Shown piece after piece: positions 6,626-23,105 of a stretch of DNA of 64,000 nt (position 1 is its first letter; every line of letters begins with the position of its first letter). Both the position numbers and the translations under genes were made by a program. The stretch spans positions 17,021 to 81,020 of the forward strand of contig JAHHHU010000021.1 of NCBI GenBank assembly GCA_019359175.1, read 5' to 3'. The notes beneath the pieces are model-generated. The model was not told the DNA's origin. It searched no databases and worked only from the letters and a program-made list of their open reading frames with translations. This DNA is from Phormidium tanganyikae FI6-MK23. Lineage in GTDB: Bacteria > Cyanobacteriota > Cyanobacteriia > Leptolyngbyales > Leptolyngbyaceae.

Positions 6626-8689
6626 ATGGCTAGAAAACCCACCCCCCAATGGCTTCAAGGGCTTCAATCATTCCAGAAGCCGAAATCTGAAGAAGAGCAT
6701 CCGTCGACTCCAATCGATCGCCCCTCCGACCATTCCACTGTTCTCCTAGAAGATGACCCCAACTCTGAGGATTCTACGGAGTTAGAACCGCGTGAGTCTC
6801 TGCCGCATCCGGTAAAGCACCGAGTTGCCAAGATTAGCAAACGCGCAGCGAAAACTGCGACGGCTGCAACCACCGTGACCGCCCACCGAATGGGATCGCT
6901 TGCCAAAGCTTGGAAGTGGCAACTGATCTGGTTAAGTATTCTCGGTGTTTTTGGGGGAACCGGAGCGATCGCGTTTTTGTGGATCTCGAAAGTTCCGCCC
7001 GCTGTCGAGTGTCAGAAAGTAACCGTTCAATCGTTGGAGTCAGAGCAGCTTTCTTGCGCTCAACAAGCCGCGCAGTCGGGTAACGCTGATCAGATTATTG
7101 CTTCGATTAATTTGGTGAAAGGCTGGACGACAGAGCATCCCCTGTATGGACAGTCGCGATCGCTGCTCGAAGATTGGTCAAATACGCTGCTGATTTTGGC
7201 ACGCGATCGAGTGAATCAGCGAGACATCAAAGGCGCGGTTTCCCTAGCAAATCAGATTCCGCAGTCGAGTCCGATCTACAAAGATGCTCAAGCGGCGATC
7301 GATCGATGGCAGGCAGAGTACCGCAGAGGAGAAGCGATTTACGCCAAAATTGTCGATGCGCTGAAGAAGCAAAGCTGGGATAAAGCGTCGGAGCAAATGG
7401 CGCAATTGGCGCTCGTGAATGATCCCGGTTGGCAAGAGCGCTTAGGGCAGATTCGTGAACAGACCAACAGCGAGAAGAAAGCTTGGAAATCTTTAACTGA
7501 CGCGCGGAATTTTGCGAAAGCGAATCCACCGACGCAGCTAGGGCAAGCGATCGCACTGGCTGATCCCATCGATCGCAAAACGTTCGTTTGGACATTGCAG
7601 GCAAATCAGGAAGTGACTCGCTGGCGCAATACGATTTTTAGTCTAGTGATCGCGCAGTTTGATCAGCAAAAGATTGGTGTTGCAAGCAATCTACTCAACT
7701 CGCTGCCAGAAAGTGTTCAGTTGACGGGCGCTAACCAGGATCTAATTCGATTGGTGCGGGCAAGAGAAATTGAAACTGCTAATCGATACAATGCGCCGGG
7801 ATTGGAACGAATTGTGCCGATAATGATGGCGACTCATCTGGTGAAGCAGATCGATTCCCAAAGTCCATTTGCATCACGGGCAAAAACGTTAATTCCCCGC
7901 TTAGAGCAGCAGACACAAGATTTAATGCAGTTGAACGTTGCAAGCACGATCGCGAATTTACAACAAATCCCGATGCTGGAAGTTGCGATCGCTCAAGCAA
8001 CTTCGGTTCAACCAAAACGTCCCGGACGGCTTCACGCGCAAACCTTGATCGCACAATGGCGTAAGGAATTGCAGTCGATGCAGGATCGACCTGTTTTAAC
8101 CCGCGCGGAACAGGTCGCGAAATCCGGCAAGGTTGGAAATCTTCGATCCGCGATCGCGCTGGCATCGCTTGTAAAACCGCAGCGATCGCTCCGAATTCAA
8201 GCGCAAACGAATATCGCGGATTGGACAAATCAGATCGAGATTATTGAAGACCGTCCAATTATCAACAATGCAAGAGCGATCGCGCAAACTGGACAACTCG
8301 GACAGGCGATCAACGTGGCAGGAAGTATCCGGCCGGGACGAGCCTTGTACAACGAGGCGCAAGGCTTGATCGGGGAATGGGTGTATCAGATTCAGCTTGC
8401 CGAGGATCGACCAGTTCTAAATCAGGCGGCAGGGCTAGCAGGTCAGGGATATCTGACCCGCGCGATCGATGTGGCAGCGGGAATTGCGCCGGGACGACCG
8501 CTGTATGGGGAAGCGAGAGGCTTGATCGGGCAGTGGGCAGCAGAGCGGGCAGAAATTTGGCGGCAGCGGGATGGCGCTCCTCAGCCTGCACCGAGTTACG
8601 AGTCACCTGTGCAATCGGCTCCTTCACCTGAGCCGAGTCGATCCGAACCCATGCCACCTGCTTCGTCGGAACCTACCCCGCCGCAGTAG
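6626..8689 (+). CDS. Single-pass membrane protein with tandem helical repeats
   Basis: A 687-residue protein. Residues 1-95 are hydrophilic and acidic, then basic. A TM helix lies near 98-120 (LIWLSILGVFGGTGAIAFLW). The rest is an extracytoplasmic helical repeat domain. The clearest repeats, about 50 residues each between 485 and 645, share DRPVLxxAxxLAxxGxLxxAI, then a PGRxLYxEAQxLIxxW motif. A Pro/Ser/Glu-rich tail follows. Such proteins are sometimes misannotated as chromosome segregation ATPases, but no ATPase motif is present. Function is unknown; the repeats resemble TPR-like scaffolds. The next gene (DUF3685) follows on the same strand. Confidence 0.7.
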   Translation: MARKPTPQWLQGLQSFQKPKSEEEHPSTPIDRPSDHSTVLLEDDPNSEDSTELEPRESLPHPVKHRVAKISKRAAKTATAATTVTAHRMGSLAKAWKWQLIWLSILGVFGGTGAIAFLWISKVPPAVECQKVTVQSLESEQLSCAQQAAQSGNADQIIASINLVKGWTTEHPLYGQSRSLLEDWSNTLLILARDRVNQRDIKGAVSLANQIPQSSPIYKDAQAAIDRWQAEYRRGEAIYAKIVDALKKQSWDKASEQMAQLALVNDPGWQERLGQIREQTNSEKKAWKSLTDARNFAKANPPTQLGQAIALADPIDRKTFVWTLQANQEVTRWRNTIFSLVIAQFDQQKIGVASNLLNSLPESVQLTGANQDLIRLVRAREIETANRYNAPGLERIVPIMMATHLVKQIDSQSPFASRAKTLIPRLEQQTQDLMQLNVASTIANLQQIPMLEVAIAQATSVQPKRPGRLHAQTLIAQWRKELQSMQDRPVLTRAEQVAKSGKVGNLRSAIALASLVKPQRSLRIQAQTNIADWTNQIEIIEDRPIINNARAIAQTGQLGQAINVAGSIRPGRALYNEAQGLIGEWVYQIQLAEDRPVLNQAAGLAGQGYLTRAIDVAAGIAPGRPLYGEARGLIGQWAAERAEIWRQRDGAPQPAPSYESPVQSAPSPEPSRSEPMPPASSEPTPPQ

Positions 8690-11420: not shown

Positions 11421-12218
11421 ATGACTCAACAACTTCTCAACAATGAAGAGATCGTCTCTGAGCTTGACATCAGCCATTTGACGATCGAGGACGATACACC
11501 CGTGGATAACTTTCAATCTGAAGAGCAACAACGGCTCCTAGTCGAACCGCTTTATAGTTCTAAGGCTCTGCCTGTCCCCTTTCTAGCCGCTGCTAACGTC
11601 GGGCTGTTCTACAAACTTAAAGGCGATCCGATCGTGCCCGATGCGCTGCTGAGTTTAGAAGTCCAGCGCCCCAACGACTTTTCTGAAAAGCGCAATCGCT
11701 CCTACTTTGTGTGGGAGTTTGGCAAAGTGCCAGAAGTCTGTATCGAAATTGTGTCGAATCAAGAAGGCGATGAGGTGATTCTCAGTCAAAAATCGCTTCA
11801 AAAAGGCAAGACGACGGCGAAGAAAGAGATTTACGCTCAGATCGGGGTGCGATACTACGTGGTCTTCGATCCGCTCGAACAGATTCAAGCGCCAGAAGAA
11901 ATGAATCGGGCGTTGTTGCGGGTGTGGTCAATTTCTGGCGAAGGCTACAGGGAGGTGACACCACCGGAAGGAATTCGCGAAGTAGGGCAATCCGTTTGGC
12001 TAAATGGAGTTGGAATTGGTTTGACCCTATGGGAAGGGCAATTTGAAGACGAAGGGATGCGGTTGTGGTTGCGCTGGTGCAATCGTAACGGGCAGGTCAT
12101 TCTCACTGGCGCAGAAGGCAAAGAAATAGAACGCCAAGGTAGAGAAATGGAACGCCAACGAGCGGAGCGACTTGCCGATCGACTCCGAGCGCTGGGCATC
12201 GATCCGAATGAGGTTTGA
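11421..12218 (+). CDS. Uma2 family (DUF820) putative restriction-endonuclease-like protein
   Basis: A 265-residue member of the Uma2/DUF820 family, greatly expanded in cyanobacteria and built on a PD-(D/E)XK-like fold. Visible core elements are IVPDALLSLE, VPEVCIEIVSNQEGDE and KKEIYAQIGVRYYVVFDP; the E-x-V and K-x-x-x-Y are family hallmarks. The C-terminal 40 residues are a charged helix (EIERQGREMERQRAERLADR), also common in the family. Nuclease activity is not established. ATG 11421 is preferred over the TTG two codons upstream. Confidence 0.85.
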   Translation: MTQQLLNNEEIVSELDISHLTIEDDTPVDNFQSEEQQRLLVEPLYSSKALPVPFLAAANVGLFYKLKGDPIVPDALLSLEVQRPNDFSEKRNRSYFVWEFGKVPEVCIEIVSNQEGDEVILSQKSLQKGKTTAKKEIYAQIGVRYYVVFDPLEQIQAPEEMNRALLRVWSISGEGYREVTPPEGIREVGQSVWLNGVGIGLTLWEGQFEDEGMRLWLRWCNRNGQVILTGAEGKEIERQGREMERQRAERLADRLRALGIDPNEV

Positions 12219-12222
12219 TAGT

Positions 12223-13053
12223 TTATCTCCAAATTGCATCAGCCACCCGACAAGCATCGTGCATCGCTGCGACATCATGCACTCGAACGATATCGGCTCC
12301 ATTAACGATCGCACTCACACAAGCGGCAGCCGTTCCCCAAACTCGCTTCTTTGGATCGGGCTGATCGAGAATATGCCCGATGAAGCCTTTTCGCGAGGCT
12401 CCGACTAAGATGGGACAGTTCAAAGATTGAAAGGCTTGTAATCGTCGTAAGATTTCTAAGTTTTGAGCGTATTTTTTTGCAAATCCGATTCCTGGATCGA
12501 TCATGATTTGCTTGATTCCATGTGCGATCGCGCTTTCAATTCGTTCTTGCAAGAAATCACAAATCTCTTGAATCAGATCTTGATACTCAGTTAAAGACTG
12601 CATTGTTTTCGGTGTTCCTCTCATGTGCATCAGAATAATTGGAACGCCTAATTTTTTAACCGTTGAGAGCATTTCTGAATCGAAAACTGCACCAGAAATA
12701 TCATTGATGATATCGGCTCCGGCAGCGATCGCTTCTCTTGCAACCTGCGATCGAGTTGTATCGACTGAAATTGGAATCTGAACATCCTGTCGAATGGCTT
12801 CGATTACAGGAATCACTCGATCGAGTTCTTCTTGCAATGAGACTTCATCCGCATTTGGGCGCGTGGATTGTCCGCCGATGTCAAGAATATCTGCACCGTC
12901 TTCGATCATTTGATTGGCTTGAGCGATCGCGCTTTCCAATGAGTTGAACTGTCCGCCATCGCTAAAACTATCGGGCGTGACGTTCAAAACGCCCATGATG
13001 TAGGTTTTCTGTCCCCAATTGAAAGTGGTGCGCGGTAGTTCCCAGGCTTGCAT
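12223..13053 (-). CDS. folP: Dihydropteroate synthase
   Basis: A 276-residue TIM-barrel enzyme joining 6-hydroxymethyl-dihydropterin diphosphate and p-aminobenzoate to make dihydropteroate in folate synthesis. Signature motifs are complete: MGVLNVTPDSFSDGG, DILDIGGQSTRPNA, NDISG, IILMHMRGTPKTM, IDPGIGFAK and GASRKGFIG. It has the usual length for the family. It stops 4 bases from the convergent Uma2 gene. No other folate gene is adjacent. Confidence 0.95.
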   Translation of the reverse strand: MQAWELPRTTFNWGQKTYIMGVLNVTPDSFSDGGQFNSLESAIAQANQMIEDGADILDIGGQSTRPNADEVSLQEELDRVIPVIEAIRQDVQIPISVDTTRSQVAREAIAAGADIINDISGAVFDSEMLSTVKKLGVPIILMHMRGTPKTMQSLTEYQDLIQEICDFLQERIESAIAHGIKQIMIDPGIGFAKKYAQNLEILRRLQAFQSLNCPILVGASRKGFIGHILDQPDPKKRVWGTAAACVSAIVNGADIVRVHDVAAMHDACRVADAIWR

Positions 13054-17990: not shown

Positions 17991-18020
17991 GACCCAGTAT
18001 CACACCTTCCTAACGGTAAT

Positions 18021-18425
18021 CTAGAGTTGCCGCCAGTTCTCAATTTGCAAGCCAGGAATTCGAGTAAACTCTCGCTCGTTTGCCGTGACCATCACAAGCT
18101 GATGCCGAAAGGCAATGGCTCCAATCAAAACATCGTAAGCACCGATCTGCTGACCTTGAGATTTAAGAAGGCAGCGAATCTGCCCCGCTTGCTCAGCATC
18201 TGGCACATCGAAGGGAAGTAGCGAAACCGAACTCAGAAAGCTAGAAATAACAGGTTCAATTTTTTGGGCACGCTGGGGATTGAGTTGTAAGCCGTAGCGT
18301 AATTCCATTACAGTAATTGCAGAAACAGCAATCTCAGCGGGTGGCGTTTGCCGAATTCGAGATTGGGTATTGGGTTCACCTTTGATAAAGTCACTAATCA
18401 CGCAGGTATCGAGCAGGTAACGCAT
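18021..18425 (-). CDS. vapC: Type II toxin, VapC-like PIN-domain ribonuclease
   Basis: A 134-residue PIN domain. Acidic catalytic positions are visible: D6 (YLLDTCVISDFI), E41 (AITVMELRYGL) and D98 (IGAYDVLIGA), with the C-terminal TANEREFTRI. VapC toxins cleave tRNA or rRNA when released from the antitoxin. The start overlaps the antitoxin stop by one base (TAATG), the usual translational coupling. It ends the minus-strand run that includes the large NACHT gene. Confidence 0.9.
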   Translation of the reverse strand: MRYLLDTCVISDFIKGEPNTQSRIRQTPPAEIAVSAITVMELRYGLQLNPQRAQKIEPVISSFLSSVSLLPFDVPDAEQAGQIRCLLKSQGQQIGAYDVLIGAIAFRHQLVMVTANEREFTRIPGLQIENWRQL

Positions 18426-18667
18426 TAAAACAGCTCCGTTTCACGGGGCGGAAGAAGTTCAGCACGATAAGATTCGAGATTGGGAAAATCCGGCGTGCCT
18501 TCATAAGAGAGAACGAGAGCTGACCAATCCGCGTCTTGAGATAATTGGGTGACTTGGCGAAGGGACTGAAGAATCAGTGTTTCAACTGGAATATTTAGTT
18601 GGGCAGCCTGTTGAAGTAGATTCTGTTCTAAATCTTTGGGTAAGTCGATCGTAATCTGCATAATCAT
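18425..18667 (-). CDS. vapB: Type II antitoxin, VapB-like
   Basis: An 80-residue protein with an N-terminal ribbon-helix-helix-like segment (MQITIDLPKDLEQNLLQQAA, then NIPVETLILQSLRQ) and an acidic, disordered C-terminus that would wrap the toxin. It begins 16 bases after the stop of the NACHT-type gene on the same strand and overlaps vapC by one base. The pair could be an independent addiction module or be co-transcribed with the NACHT gene. Two ATGs one codon apart are possible starts (18667 and 18661). Confidence 0.82.
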   Translation of the reverse strand: MIMQITIDLPKDLEQNLLQQAAQLNIPVETLILQSLRQVTQLSQDADWSALVLSYEGTPDFPNLESYRAELLPPRETELF

Positions 18668-18683
18668 GAACTCTCTGATTAAT

Positions 18684-21600
18684 CTATTTTTCTAGCTTTT
18701 GCTCAATTTGAGGAGCTGTATTTGGCTTGAAGAAAAATTTCTTGATTTCGTCGTTAAATACTCCACTAACAGCTATGGAAATTAGTGAAATAGCAATAGG
18801 AAGCCAGAATTTCCAGTTAGCTTCCTTTTCAGGAGGGGGATCGCTTCTGTGTTCAATCTTGCCACTGCCCACAACTCCGCTGATTTCGGAATTCATAACA
18901 TGAATACTTTGATCGATCTTAGGTTCATCTGCCATTTCCTGTGTTCTCCGAGCAATTGTACCAAGCTGATTGTATAACTCTAAGTTGGAAGGCTCTTGAT
19001 TCGCCACAAGCCGAAGAATTTCCTCCGGTTGCGGTGGTTTCCATTCCCTACGCCGAGCAGAAGCCTCAGCTTCTGGTAATCGCCATTGCAGTTTATCTTT
19101 CTGTTCAGGAAGCTGATGAATTATTTTACGAAGTGCTTCACACGCTCCGCGAGTACCGCGTTGTTGAAGCCGCTGTGGAATTTGTTCTCTCCATCTTCTG
19201 ATGCTATCTTCAGCGCTGATTGAATAGTCTTCGATTCTAATGTCTTCATTTTGAATGTTTCCTTGCTTTTGTTGGGGTTCAGGATAGTGTTTGACCAAGA
19301 AAATGTATAAATCAGCAATATAGTCTTCACAAAGTCTATGTTCGATACTTCCTTGAAACTCATTTGCAAATGACACAGCTTCTAAAACTTTCTTCCTGTA
19401 TTCAAAGTCATGTTGAATTGAGTTCCATACTAGCGCCCAGCTTTCATCGTCGGTGTAGAGCATCAACATTTGGGCTGCAACGATCGCAATTTCTCTCGCT
19501 TTTCCCGCGATCGGCGGAGGCGATGAGATTTGAGCTTGCGCGAATGTCTTAGCTGGCTTGCTTTGTTTGCTCAAAAGCTGTTTGAGTAGAGAGCCAATGC
19601 TCTTAGCGGTTAGTTTTTCATCCTGCAATTTGCGGCAGAGTGCGGTCTCCAGTCGCTCATTCCAAAGCTGATCTACTTGATTAGAAATATAGATATCACC
19701 ATGTTGAGTGTTGTCCCAATCTAGCAAGATTATTAGCCTACTTACAAATTCATCTGGCGCGTTCTTGTAAGTTAAAGACAATAGCGGTTCTCGATGCTCC
19801 TTGTTTCGACTATCACTAGAATTTGGATAATCGAGAATTATTGCCGTCCACTTTCTCCAAATTTCAGGAGGAATATCAAGAACGTATTGACGTTCTTTTT
19901 CAAGAACTAATCGCAAAGCTTTGTAACCCGCAAGTGCAGAGTATCGAGCAGAGTATCGAAAAGAATTTGTGCCAAACCAAGCATCTGTCTCAGGGTTGCC
20001 GTCATAAATATATCGCTTCGCCGCTGAAATAATTCGCATCTGTGTTAAGTCATCTGCTTCTCTCCAACCTGGAAGCACGGTCAAATCTGATTGGGAGTCA
20101 TCACCGTAATATTGGCTTGTTGGCAGCAATGTCATTTCTCTGCAAAGAAGCCACCATGCTTCCACTTGACCAAGCTCAAACTGCTCTAAGTACGTCAGCA
20201 CTCTTTCTTTAGGAAACGGCTTTACTTCAGGCTTTTCATCCTCCCAGGAGCGTCTTTCGTCTATCTCACGTAAGTAATTTGCTCTTGCTGTTTCAGCTTC
20301 AGATGAATTAATCTCAATTTGTCCCAGAAATGCTGCAAATTCCAATTTCAAAACAGGAAAATTCTCACTAGCAGCGATTACTAAACTAAGTTGATCTGCA
20401 TCAGTCCAATCTAATTTCAAGCGCACCAACCAAGCGTAAGTTCTTTGAACCGATTCTAGTTCTGAAGTTTGAATTTTCTCAATTAGCCATGAAAAATCTT
20501 GTTTTAGAGGAGTTACACGACTATAAAAGCTAGCTCCAGATAAGTAATACAGATGTTCTGTCGAGTCAGCGACGAGATTGATGATTGCGTCAAGAAGGCA
20601 ACGACGTTTAGAATCGTCCTCAGCCAGTAAATCTATAAACTCGATGCCTGTAAGGCTATCGATAACCTGTTGGTATGCCCTAATCCTTAGCAGAACGATT
20701 TTGGAAAATATTTCAAGAACTTGTCGGATTTCGAGATGCTGCCATGCCTTGAGCAAGATTCTATCTGATAATGCGTTGAAAGGATAGTGAGAGTGATGCA
20801 ATACTGGCTGATTTTCTAGCCATGTTAGTACGGCTGGTAAATCACTTACTTGAAGATGTTTCGCAAATTCTTTTGCTAAGAAATCTTGATAAATGCCGCC
20901 GATGACCCTTGCTCTAGGTTGCGTAATACTGTCTAAAACTTCTACGGCTGCTAGATGTTTGGGATAAAGAGCGTGTAGCGCGTGTCCTTTCAATTCGTCC
21001 TCTAAATCATCATCAGCCTGAGAGACAGCTAAAGGTTTTAATCGAAGTTTAGTTTCGGCATCTCCCAAGCGCTTTACTGCTTTTGCAGCCCTAGCTCTAA
21101 GCCAGTAAGGTTCTGTGGGATCTAGAGTGACATCAGCCAACCAGTTTTTAACTGCTTGTACATTGCAGGCTTCTGCAATATCGATTGCAACATATCGCGG
21201 TACCTCACTTTTTGTAGAATTGCAGATATACCATCGCAATTGAGTCGATAATTCAGCATGATTCCATCGCTTGTAGGGCGAAAACTCAGGCAGATGAAAG
21301 TCATAGACTAACTTTCCTTGATCATGCAACGCCAGTAGAGAATCAAGCACTGCTGCTTTTTCTTTATCGCTACTTACCAAAATCTCGCTTTGAAGTAGGA
21401 TATTTGGATCAGTCGTCATAACGCTTTGAAAGGTTTGGGTGTCCAAACTCGCTAACCAGGCAGCAGTTTCATGAAGTTGAGGAATAACTCTCCCATCTGG
21501 GTGAATAATTAGGCTTAGGATTTGATCCAGAGACAGATTATGTTGCTTCAAATACCATGCAGCTAGAAATTCAGGATAAGACTGATGCGCCCATCCCATA

Positions 21601-22658
21601 CGATTAGTACCGCGAGATGAAAACAGCCCAGTATCCAAAACTTCTCCGATAATGGTAGCGGTGACATCCACAGACCTTTGACTTGCTCTCTCACTTCCTA
21701 AACAAAGCCTTTCGAGCAGGATGTCTTCATCAGCAACATCGCTCAAACTTCCCGTCCAAACCGCAGATTTTCTAGCAAAGATAGTTACAGCAGCAATACG
21801 AGCAGCGATAATTAAGCGTTGCCCAACGTCAGTGCTGCTAGCTCTTCTGCTTGGATGATAGTTTTGGTCTTTTGGCTCTTCACACAATATCCTGCATCCC
21901 TCAAGGTAAAGATCAGTCAGCCGTTGCGGGAATTGCTTATTATTACGTTGAAAAATGTTTATTAGGAACTGTAGCGTTATTGGCTTAATTGCAAACGGTA
22001 CGACCCCTTTACGATCTACCGCTTCCAAAAACCTATCAGCGTCTATCCTAGACTCGGTTGCTGCTATTCTTACGTCAGTTCGTCGAAGCGGAACTAGCTC
22101 ATAAATTTTTACATTATTCTTCCAGAGCTGGTTCAATCCTTCTTCCATACTCTTTGGAAAGACAGCAGTTCGACAAGCAATACGGAAGTAAAGACGACTG
22201 AGATGTCCACGGTATTCCTCTTTGCTAAGTTCTTCGACCAACAGCATTGAGAGGGTATCGATTTTTAATAAGCCTTCGTCTAGGCTATCTAGAAAGAGAT
22301 GAAGACGATGTGTACCATTCGTCCAGTCAATAAAAGTTTTAGACTCAAATAGATTTCGGATTAATCTAGTTTCGCTGCTGTAAGCTTGCAGATCGAGAGG
22401 CAGTTGCTTGTCAAGCGCATTAACGGCAGTTTGAGTATGGTTTCTCAGATTTTTTAGTTCCTGCGACTTGCCAATTCCTGGTTCACCTAGCAAAACCAAG
22501 CATTGAGACTCAACCATCGATTCAAGACTAGTCAGTTCTGAATTGCAATACTTTCCCCACTCAGAACCAGGATTGGTCAGATAGCCACGATCGCTAAGAT
22601 CGAATTGACTCGATCGAGCACACCAAAAACGCTTCCAGTCATACACAAGATCCGGCAT
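18684..22658 (-). CDS. NACHT/STAND-type ATPase with helical repeats and C-terminal membrane segment
   Basis: A 1324-residue protein. The NTPase starts almost at the N-terminus: Walker A GEPGIGKS at 58-65, Walker B LHLFLDSLDEG at 119-129, an RIACRTAVFP sensor strand near 159-168, and the NACHT winged-helix phrase WAHQSYPEFLAAWYL near 380-395. About 800 residues of helical, HEAT-like sequence follow. A Gly-rich patch lies near 1250-1268, then a single TM helix near 1283-1301 and a basic tail. Related bacterial NACHT/STAND proteins sense phage proteins and trigger abortive infection; that role is inferred here. No nuclease, TIR or protease effector is recognised, and the membrane segment is the only effector-like part. 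CGATCG occurs only about four times, far fewer than in flanking genes, suggesting transfer. Confidence 0.82.
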   Translation of the reverse strand: MPDLVYDWKRFWCARSSQFDLSDRGYLTNPGSEWGKYCNSELTSLESMVESQCLVLLGEPGIGKSQELKNLRNHTQTAVNALDKQLPLDLQAYSSETRLIRNLFESKTFIDWTNGTHRLHLFLDSLDEGLLKIDTLSMLLVEELSKEEYRGHLSRLYFRIACRTAVFPKSMEEGLNQLWKNNVKIYELVPLRRTDVRIAATESRIDADRFLEAVDRKGVVPFAIKPITLQFLINIFQRNNKQFPQRLTDLYLEGCRILCEEPKDQNYHPSRRASSTDVGQRLIIAARIAAVTIFARKSAVWTGSLSDVADEDILLERLCLGSERASQRSVDVTATIIGEVLDTGLFSSRGTNRMGWAHQSYPEFLAAWYLKQHNLSLDQILSLIIHPDGRVIPQLHETAAWLASLDTQTFQSVMTTDPNILLQSEILVSSDKEKAAVLDSLLALHDQGKLVYDFHLPEFSPYKRWNHAELSTQLRWYICNSTKSEVPRYVAIDIAEACNVQAVKNWLADVTLDPTEPYWLRARAAKAVKRLGDAETKLRLKPLAVSQADDDLEDELKGHALHALYPKHLAAVEVLDSITQPRARVIGGIYQDFLAKEFAKHLQVSDLPAVLTWLENQPVLHHSHYPFNALSDRILLKAWQHLEIRQVLEIFSKIVLLRIRAYQQVIDSLTGIEFIDLLAEDDSKRRCLLDAIINLVADSTEHLYYLSGASFYSRVTPLKQDFSWLIEKIQTSELESVQRTYAWLVRLKLDWTDADQLSLVIAASENFPVLKLEFAAFLGQIEINSSEAETARANYLREIDERRSWEDEKPEVKPFPKERVLTYLEQFELGQVEAWWLLCREMTLLPTSQYYGDDSQSDLTVLPGWREADDLTQMRIISAAKRYIYDGNPETDAWFGTNSFRYSARYSALAGYKALRLVLEKERQYVLDIPPEIWRKWTAIILDYPNSSDSRNKEHREPLLSLTYKNAPDEFVSRLIILLDWDNTQHGDIYISNQVDQLWNERLETALCRKLQDEKLTAKSIGSLLKQLLSKQSKPAKTFAQAQISSPPPIAGKAREIAIVAAQMLMLYTDDESWALVWNSIQHDFEYRKKVLEAVSFANEFQGSIEHRLCEDYIADLYIFLVKHYPEPQQKQGNIQNEDIRIEDYSISAEDSIRRWREQIPQRLQQRGTRGACEALRKIIHQLPEQKDKLQWRLPEAEASARRREWKPPQPEEILRLVANQEPSNLELYNQLGTIARRTQEMADEPKIDQSIHVMNSEISGVVGSGKIEHRSDPPPEKEANWKFWLPIAISLISIAVSGVFNDEIKKFFFKPNTAPQIEQKLEK

Positions 22659-22750
22659 ACGAAGAAACTTTGAGGGTAGAACTCCTGTTCTAAGATAACG
22701 CCACTTCAGAATTTTGAGTACGGAGACAATAAGATTCTTGCATGGAGAAC

Positions 22751-23044
22751 TCAGGTTTTTTGAGCGATCGACAGTCTCAAATTCAATTGCTCCAAAAGCT
22801 CAACCAGCATCAATAAACCCGGCATTTCTCCCTGTTCAAGCAGCTCGTAACACTGTTGCCACTTTGAAGTATCTTCTAGTCCAGTTGAACCCGCACGAGC
22901 CTCCGCCACATTCTTTAAAGCTAAACGAATATGCTGTGGATCGCCATCTTCTAAGACAGAATCCAAATATGCTGCTGCTTCATCTAGATTTTCTAGCGAA
23001 GCAATTAGGAAAGCATAGTAACTCTTAACTGTCAGCACTATCAA
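22751..23044 (-). CDS. HigA-like addiction-module antitoxin (orphan)
   Basis: A protein of about 97 residues. SYYAFLIASLENLDEAAAYL, then DSVLEDGDPQHIRLALKNVA, and the closing LLMLVELLEQLNLRLSIAQ match the antidote family related to HigA (TIGR02684-like). The expected central helix-turn-helix (A-x-x-x-G-L-S-R) is poorly conserved here (STGLEDTSKWQQCYELL), so DNA binding may be lost. No RelE/HigB toxin is adjacent. The start is uncertain: no ATG exists, and TTG 23044, GTG 23038 and TTG 23074 are in frame; the last lies within a hairpin. It is 92 bases upstream of the NACHT gene and same-strand. Confidence 0.6.
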   Translation of the reverse strand: MIVLTVKSYYAFLIASLENLDEAAAYLDSVLEDGDPQHIRLALKNVAEARAGSTGLEDTSKWQQCYELLEQGEMPGLLMLVELLEQLNLRLSIAQKT

Positions 23045-23068
23045 TTGTTCTCTGATATGAGCCTGAGC

Positions 23069-23096
23069 GCGCAATCAGAAAAAAACTGAATTGCGC
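23069..23096 (-). terminator. Hairpin after the GH57 gene
   Basis: Read on the minus strand, GCGCAATTCAG, a T7 loop and CTGATTGCGC form a hairpin with one bulged base, 9 bases after the GH57 stop. There is no T-run after the stem, so it may be a weak terminator or an RNA-stabilising 3' end separating GH57 from the antitoxin/NACHT genes. Confidence 0.5.
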
Positions 23097-23105
23097 TTCC
23101 ACGGT

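Follow-up and report, generated by a model that had tools for sequence, protein, structure and literature searches.

In published descriptions of bacterial NACHT proteins, the effector domain lies at the N terminus (PMC12169576, PMC13092281). In the former source, the bNACHT proteins, among them bNACHT25, bNACHT32 and those of clade 14 with SNaCT, are presented as having the effector at the N terminus and the sensor at the C terminus, and clade 14 is given as having no discernible effector. Here we describe a gene for a giant NACHT-STAND protein and the vapBC toxin-antitoxin pair directly behind it, in a 64,000-nucleotide window (the whole stretch of DNA analysed) on contig 17 of the 77-contig, 5.7 Mb genome of Phormidium tanganyikae FI6-MK23. 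The protein resembles the bNACHT proteins in its NACHT module and C-terminal helical region, whereas its family carries a variable, effector-like domain at the C terminus, after the solenoid. Compared with animal NLRs (NLRP7, NLRC4, NOD2, NLRP3), the effector-like domain again lies at the opposite end, and a predicted long helical repeat takes the place of their leucine-rich sensor. The family thus offers interchangeable effector-like domains at the far end, where described bacterial NLR-like proteins have the effector ahead of NACHT; because close relatives differ almost only in the tail, different effectors could be compared on one sensor within an otherwise constant protein.

A toxin-antitoxin guard has been reported for CRISPR-Cas. 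CreTA, as described in PMC9458426, is RNA-based and repressed by Cascade. The idea in common would be a toxin-antitoxin pair that penalises the loss of a defence system, whereas the pair considered here is made of proteins and has no known control by NACHT. The recurrence of VapBC, and its persistence after loss of the receptor, would allow a direct test of such guarding for NLR-type immunity. Full-text literature on NACHT, VapBC and cyanobacteria yielded nothing, most subscription papers lying outside its coverage. NACHT and VapBC occur together in PMC13092281, where VapBC appears only as PIN-domain background, and in PMC7863931, which by its title concerns another subject; the novelty of the unit is accordingly provisional.

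Recurrent NACHT-vapBC linkage

The preliminary description of this DNA had placed four genes close together on one strand, and all of their coordinates proved correct. On the minus strand, a HigA-like gene is followed after 92 bases by the NACHT gene and after a further 16 bases by vapB, whose reading frame overlaps that of vapC by one base. We scanned 388 genomes of the class separately for NACHT (at most two candidates scored per genome) and for VapC (at most ten). As a result, the NACHT family was found in 26 genomes and this VapC subfamily in 53, with a single VapC match in each. Of the 16 genomes holding both, 14 had VapC immediately after NACHT, the exceptions being G006 and G202, so the toxin-antitoxin neighbour is not peculiar to this genome; the 14 include two broken NACHT genes (G239, G268) and one split by a contig end (G259). 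This adjacency is far beyond chance: it would rarely arise at random, because only 16 PIN matches are present in the whole 5.7 Mb genome. A further family sample of 63 genomes added one VapC genome, G389, which was without NACHT. The spacing, for which the preliminary description had proposed about 50 bases as the limit to check, was about 17-39 bases in homologues from several cyanobacterial families.

We also counted from the NACHT side. Four of the 85 NACHT loci read (L074, L091, L104, L109) gave no open reading frame match; a VapB/VapC pair lay directly downstream in ten of the remaining 81, one with a frameshifted vapC, and one further locus held a VapB stub. Among NACHT homologues of at least 1000 residues (81 rows, window included; shorter fragments and the duplicate L234 excluded; L078 is identical to L241), 11 had an intact vapBC pair, four had relics or broken pairs, 58 had none, and eight were unscorable, the contig ending too soon. 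Across 11 linked loci, the identities of core and VapC rose together (Mantel r 0.71, p 0.0001). The tails did not always follow the core: one pair of loci shared 83% identity in the core and 90% in VapC with unrelated tails, and another linked pair shared 46% in the core, 91% in the tail and 84% in VapC. Three tail types, membrane-helix, nuclease-like and helical, were found ahead of vapBC.

NACHT remnants beside lone vapBC

We then examined 53 VapC loci, namely the window and 52 others, two of which (G142, G321) were without upstream sequence. An intact NACHT open reading frame lay upstream at 11 loci, window included; one more was at a contig end (G259) and one was broken (G268). N-terminal NACHT fragments preceded vapBC in G239 and G245, and tail-end remnants alone were found in G364, G049, G192, G033, G164 and G274, ending 21-40 bases before vapB. 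Each of these six, down to the weakest, G274, with 27.7 bits, outscored every one of 1562 control windows, which reached 27.3 bits at most. In G274, the match to the element that normally lies upstream of NACHT overlaps by about 20 bases with the match to the final codons of the gene, so that the element passes straight into them, and its end is 53 bases away from vapB; the body of the NACHT gene is gone, and vapBC now stands behind the NACHT upstream region. VapC was full-length at seven remnant loci (the six tail remnants and G239) and truncated in G245 and G268.

Several further candidates were set aside. A loose search at E 1e-3 gave weak matches, not accepted, upstream of VapC in G003, G053, G063 and G213 and downstream in G212 and G250; the downstream match in G321 was strong but belonged to a separate protein. 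Scores at or below that of a candidate in G078 (21.9 bits, empirical p 0.036) were not counted, nor were G224 and G296, in which the last codons of a nuclease-type tail seem by eye to be kept and the scores failed.

Exchange of the C-terminal tail

The homologues are alike over residues 1 to about 1222 and then continue into unrelated tails. The 196 tail rows, which include some proteins found by two routes and were counted from clusters, comprised 71 nuclease-like tails, 49 with a single hydrophobic helix, 16 CHAT and four TIR tails, the others being helical, short or single. The nuclease-like class is our own assignment by motif, and the P0003 tail has no Pfam match; in the membrane-helix class, the median best Kyte-Doolittle mean was 2.21 over 49 tails. 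Sisters on the core tree carried differing tails, for example the window and L132, or L051 and L056. In the latter pair, DNA identity was 86.6% until about 30 bases before the tail, was absent across the tail, and resumed at the NACHT stop codon, with 87.4% on through vapBC. L137 and L055 showed the same pattern around the tail, with identity resuming at vapB. Sharp breakpoints thus flank the tail in two pairs of loci, vapBC forming the 3' flank, and together with the clusters they establish that tails are exchanged between relatives.

Two tails deserve separate mention. That of the homologue at L110:8001-12140 resembles an alpha/beta hydrolase (HGIRSRGEW, AHSFG), possibly a further effector type. 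At L210:684-1112, located 3' of vapBC in G321, a stand-alone protein of 142 residues shares 42% identity with a helical NACHT tail, as if tails also occur as separate genes.

The NACHT protein and its relatives

The motifs that we take to be Walker A and Walker B are strongly conserved: G58, E59, G61, G63 and K64 of the former and D124, S125 and D127 of the latter were invariant in all 40 aligned sequences. A fold search aligned the predicted model of the protein with NLR structures, in agreement with an NLR-type fold of the nucleoside-triphosphatase module. Among the best 50 matches listed per fold search, none was an Avs-type or bacterial NACHT structure, which has no bearing on kinship. No Pfam model was matched above its cut-off, and PADLOC-DB (2023 library) gave no match at E up to 1, an absence that rules nothing out. 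The only NCBIfam matches were the antiphage models EruA (NF058535) and HyoA (NF058534), both far under their equivalog cut-offs, and EruA aligned with 159.5 bits (cut-off 1000) over residues 40-1227 on model positions 13-1147 of 1318. The likeness runs along the core, whereas the tail and the vapBC partner set the window protein apart. The EruA model also matched five relatives, four of which have other tails, and in one nuclease-tailed relative the alignment extended into the tail (model positions 72-1274). Judged by these scores, the protein is a relative of the EruA family and not itself EruA, the equivalog cut-off not being reached. Conserved Walker motifs, an NLR-like predicted fold and a distant match to the antiphage-labelled EruA therefore bear out the initial call of a giant NACHT/STAND protein.

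The Walker A motif already sits at residue 58, so there is too little room ahead of the NACHT module for an effector, and the variable domains lie beyond residue 1222 or so. Among the best 120 of 2320 matches (7992 candidates scored), the nearest named homologue was from Leptolyngbya sp. NIES-2104. Literature searches for EruA together with NACHT or antiphage found no paper, the EruA papers since 2022 being on other things by title, and none was found for HyoA.

Identity and state of VapBC

VapC matched the PIN family PF01850 with 64.2 bits (cut-off 23.6), and the nearest solved chains bear the name tRNA(fMet)-specific endonuclease VapC (E 4.7e-19). Its catalytic acids were kept in linked and lone copies alike, counting the rows with a letter at each position (D6 in 51/51, E41 in 52/52 and D98 in 48/49). 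VapB had no Pfam match on its own; its gene lies directly upstream of vapC, which is the type II layout, and in a 12-row alignment the other 11 rows were 62-79% identical to the window copy. PIN domain, catalytic acids and gene order thus point to a type II toxin-antitoxin pair with VapC as the predicted toxin. It is like the tRNA(fMet)-specific VapBC in domain, catalytic acids and size, and differs in that a NACHT gene immediately precedes it in many genomes and in its score against the NCBIfam tRNA(fMet) equivalog NF047863 (115.5 bits, below the cut-off of 140).

Proposed function

With slightly more confidence than doubt, we favour a unit of two parts, a NACHT-STAND protein with an exchangeable tail and VapBC. 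The former would likely be an abortive anti-phage sensor with the tail as its effector, and VapBC would be its probable guard. We infer the following course of events. The helical solenoid would bind a phage product, upon which the NACHT module would oligomerise, by analogy with NLRs; the clustered tails would then breach the membrane in the membrane-helix class, and those of the other classes would have nuclease, CHAT protease or TIR NADase activity. VapB and VapC would be made from the NACHT transcript. If a phage shut down expression, or the operon were lost, labile VapB would decay and VapC would cut initiator tRNA; growth would then stop, and cells that retain the operon would be favoured.

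Among the roles considered for VapBC, guarding or addiction fits best with the sequence comparisons. The pair is probably no stand-in for a missing effector, because it follows three tail types; it seems not to be needed for the core, because most homologues are without it; and it is unlikely to be noise, because its similarity tracks that of the core even between distant loci. A bolder version, which we put forward tentatively and with doubt prevailing, sees an NLR-type receptor with a plug-in killing tail, in which the sensor core and VapBC would remain in place on either side of the exchanged tail, and VapBC would both protect the operon from being lost or shut off by a phage and serve as a fixed homology arm for tail recombination. 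If this is true, the locus would encode a toxin-antitoxin-guarded NLR.

Several observations weigh against the guarded two-part unit. The absence of vapBC behind 58 of 73 scorable homologues indicates that the core works without it, and the vapBC label on the NACHT tree needs eight changes, so vapBC was gained or lost often. No accepted NACHT trace was found at 30 of the 53 VapC loci, with two more unreadable upstream; 12 of the 30 form a divergent clade, no member of which is NACHT-linked. Decay also runs the other way: vapBC has decayed beside intact NACHT in L069, L135 and L086, both partners are damaged in G245, G268 and L239, and VapC is truncated by an early stop in six of 52 copies. The asymmetry between seven lone intact and three decayed vapBC is not significant. 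On the protein side, the score for EruA falls far short of the equivalog cut-off, and the membrane helix in the tail is a prediction from hydropathy.

The preliminary description had regarded the toxin pair as positioned like a downstream effector of the NACHT protein, which could operate if the active protein titrated or degraded VapB and freed VapC to cut tRNA(fMet) and stop the phage. Conserved linkage alone is compatible with such a role, and the preserved spacing and the similarity that follows the core speak for it; we keep it as a rival, though an unlikely one. The membrane-tail loci also favour it, since vapBC was present in all seven readable ones (five intact, two relics) as against 8 of 66 other loci (Fisher p 4e-6), and that tail may need a partner. 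Six of these seven loci form one clade and so come close to two independent cases, which makes the association a lead and no rule. Moreover, nuclease-like and helical tails precede the same vapBC, the NACHT protein has a tail of its own, most homologues do without the pair, and vapBC persists where NACHT is missing. The effector role is thus unsupported.

VapBC might instead be a selfish hitchhiker that gains from an often-transferred defence operon and brings NACHT no benefit, which we consider improbable. Lone copies are indeed common, with catalytic residues mostly kept; NACHT was lost around vapBC, and the genome holds its 16 PIN matches. That the subfamily occurs only once in each genome and next to NACHT in 14 of the 16 genomes with both, and that its similarity tracks the NACHT core, argue for a long partnership rather than random landing.

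Chromosomal spot and upstream element

The block occupies the interval between a branching-enzyme gene and a glycosyltransferase gene (window 17991-23105), and the features are listed in Table 1. In genomes of the same genus, this spot holds a HigA-like gene only (G001, G002), vapBC only (G003) or nothing (G004), and neither NACHT nor the element upstream of it was found to have left a remnant in these four; the surroundings of the branching-enzyme gene are different in G005 and G006, and G007 gave no match to that gene. A chance accumulation of all four genes in a small insertion hotspot agrees with these contents and stands for HigA, but it is hardly credible for the NACHT-vapBC pair, being contradicted by other families, in which vapBC follows NACHT at different sites.

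The HigA-like gene, counted as part of the module in the preliminary description, was rejected as a member, as it occurs alone at the spot and none of 81 further NACHT loci gave a HigA match (E 0.01). We regard it as a resident of the spot, because it is there without NACHT or vapBC in G001 and G002. Its protein is barely over the PF21716 cut-off (28.3 versus 27) and reaches 26.1 against 53.7 for TIGR02684, and no toxin partner lies beside it among the window's open reading frames. Its reading frame as listed starts with TTG; the longest possible one begins at 23074.

A profile of the conserved element upstream of NACHT matched 11 of 52 VapC loci with E up to 1. Ten of the matches precede a NACHT gene or an N-terminal fragment of one, and the eleventh is that at the scar in G274; seven of these loci had contributed to the profile, whereas G274, G245, G239 and G212 had not. 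In the window, the element contains a palindrome, AGAAC-AGGA-GTTCT, and the GTTATC box precedes several NACHT homologues. We did not adopt the palindrome as a VapB operator, because the GTTATC element is also present ahead of homologues without vapBC, for example L054 and L058. A sigma-70 scan of the 16-base gap between NACHT and vapB gave no promoter-like or terminator-like site, so no strong promoter was found there that would speak against the suggested co-transcription.

Table 1 Features of the NACHT-vapBC locus and its neighbour, in window coordinates
Feature	Position	Strand	Description	Basis
VapC toxin (predicted)	18021..18425	-	134 aa, PIN domain, tRNA(fMet)-type	PF01850, nearest solved chains, conserved D6/E41/D98
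VapB antitoxin (predicted)	18425..18667	-	80 aa; conserved start MQITIDLP at 18661	12-row alignment
NACHT-STAND open reading frame	18684..22658	-	1324 aa; NACHT module, helical solenoid, exchangeable C-terminal tail	
C-terminal tail	18684..18992	-	From about residue 1223; part exchanged between homologues	Tail clusters; DNA breakpoints in relatives
Predicted membrane helix in tail	18753..18809	-	FWLPIAISLISIAVSGVFN	Best 19-residue Kyte-Doolittle mean 1.81
Presumed Walker B	22275..22298	-	LFLDSLDE, residues 121-128	Alignment of 40 sequences
Presumed Walker A	22464..22487	-	GEPGIGKS, residues 58-65	Alignment of 40 sequences
Conserved non-coding element	22659..22720	-	Immediately 5' of NACHT; GTTATC box; probable promoter region	Profile search
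HigA-like orphan antitoxin	22751..23044	-	Neighbour outside the unit	PF21716; present alone at same spot in G001, G002

Further observations

The spot itself, with its HigA-only, vapBC-only, empty or fully occupied states, looks like a small insertion hotspot in the genus. Other toxin-antitoxin pairs were seen behind two homologues without vapBC, an AbrB-like gene with Fic/Doc in L059 and a Phd-like gene with a RelE-like one in L110. Such substitutes for vapBC followed no pattern: among 49 downstream open reading frames (25 of 63 families listed), there was one AbiEi match, and Uma2 was commonest (5/49).

Beside the G006 homologue, on the opposite strand, a gene for 1156 residues (L132:12057-15527) possibly encodes a second conflict protein, and in L106 and L108 genes of about 1350 residues lie just upstream. 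A Nitrospira homologue (L122:7866-13108) is split into several parts that span more DNA than usual, which gives the impression of an insertion. In two Nostoc genomes (L064, L118), related imperfect repeats at about 7600-7880 and 12100-12540 flank the NACHT gene.

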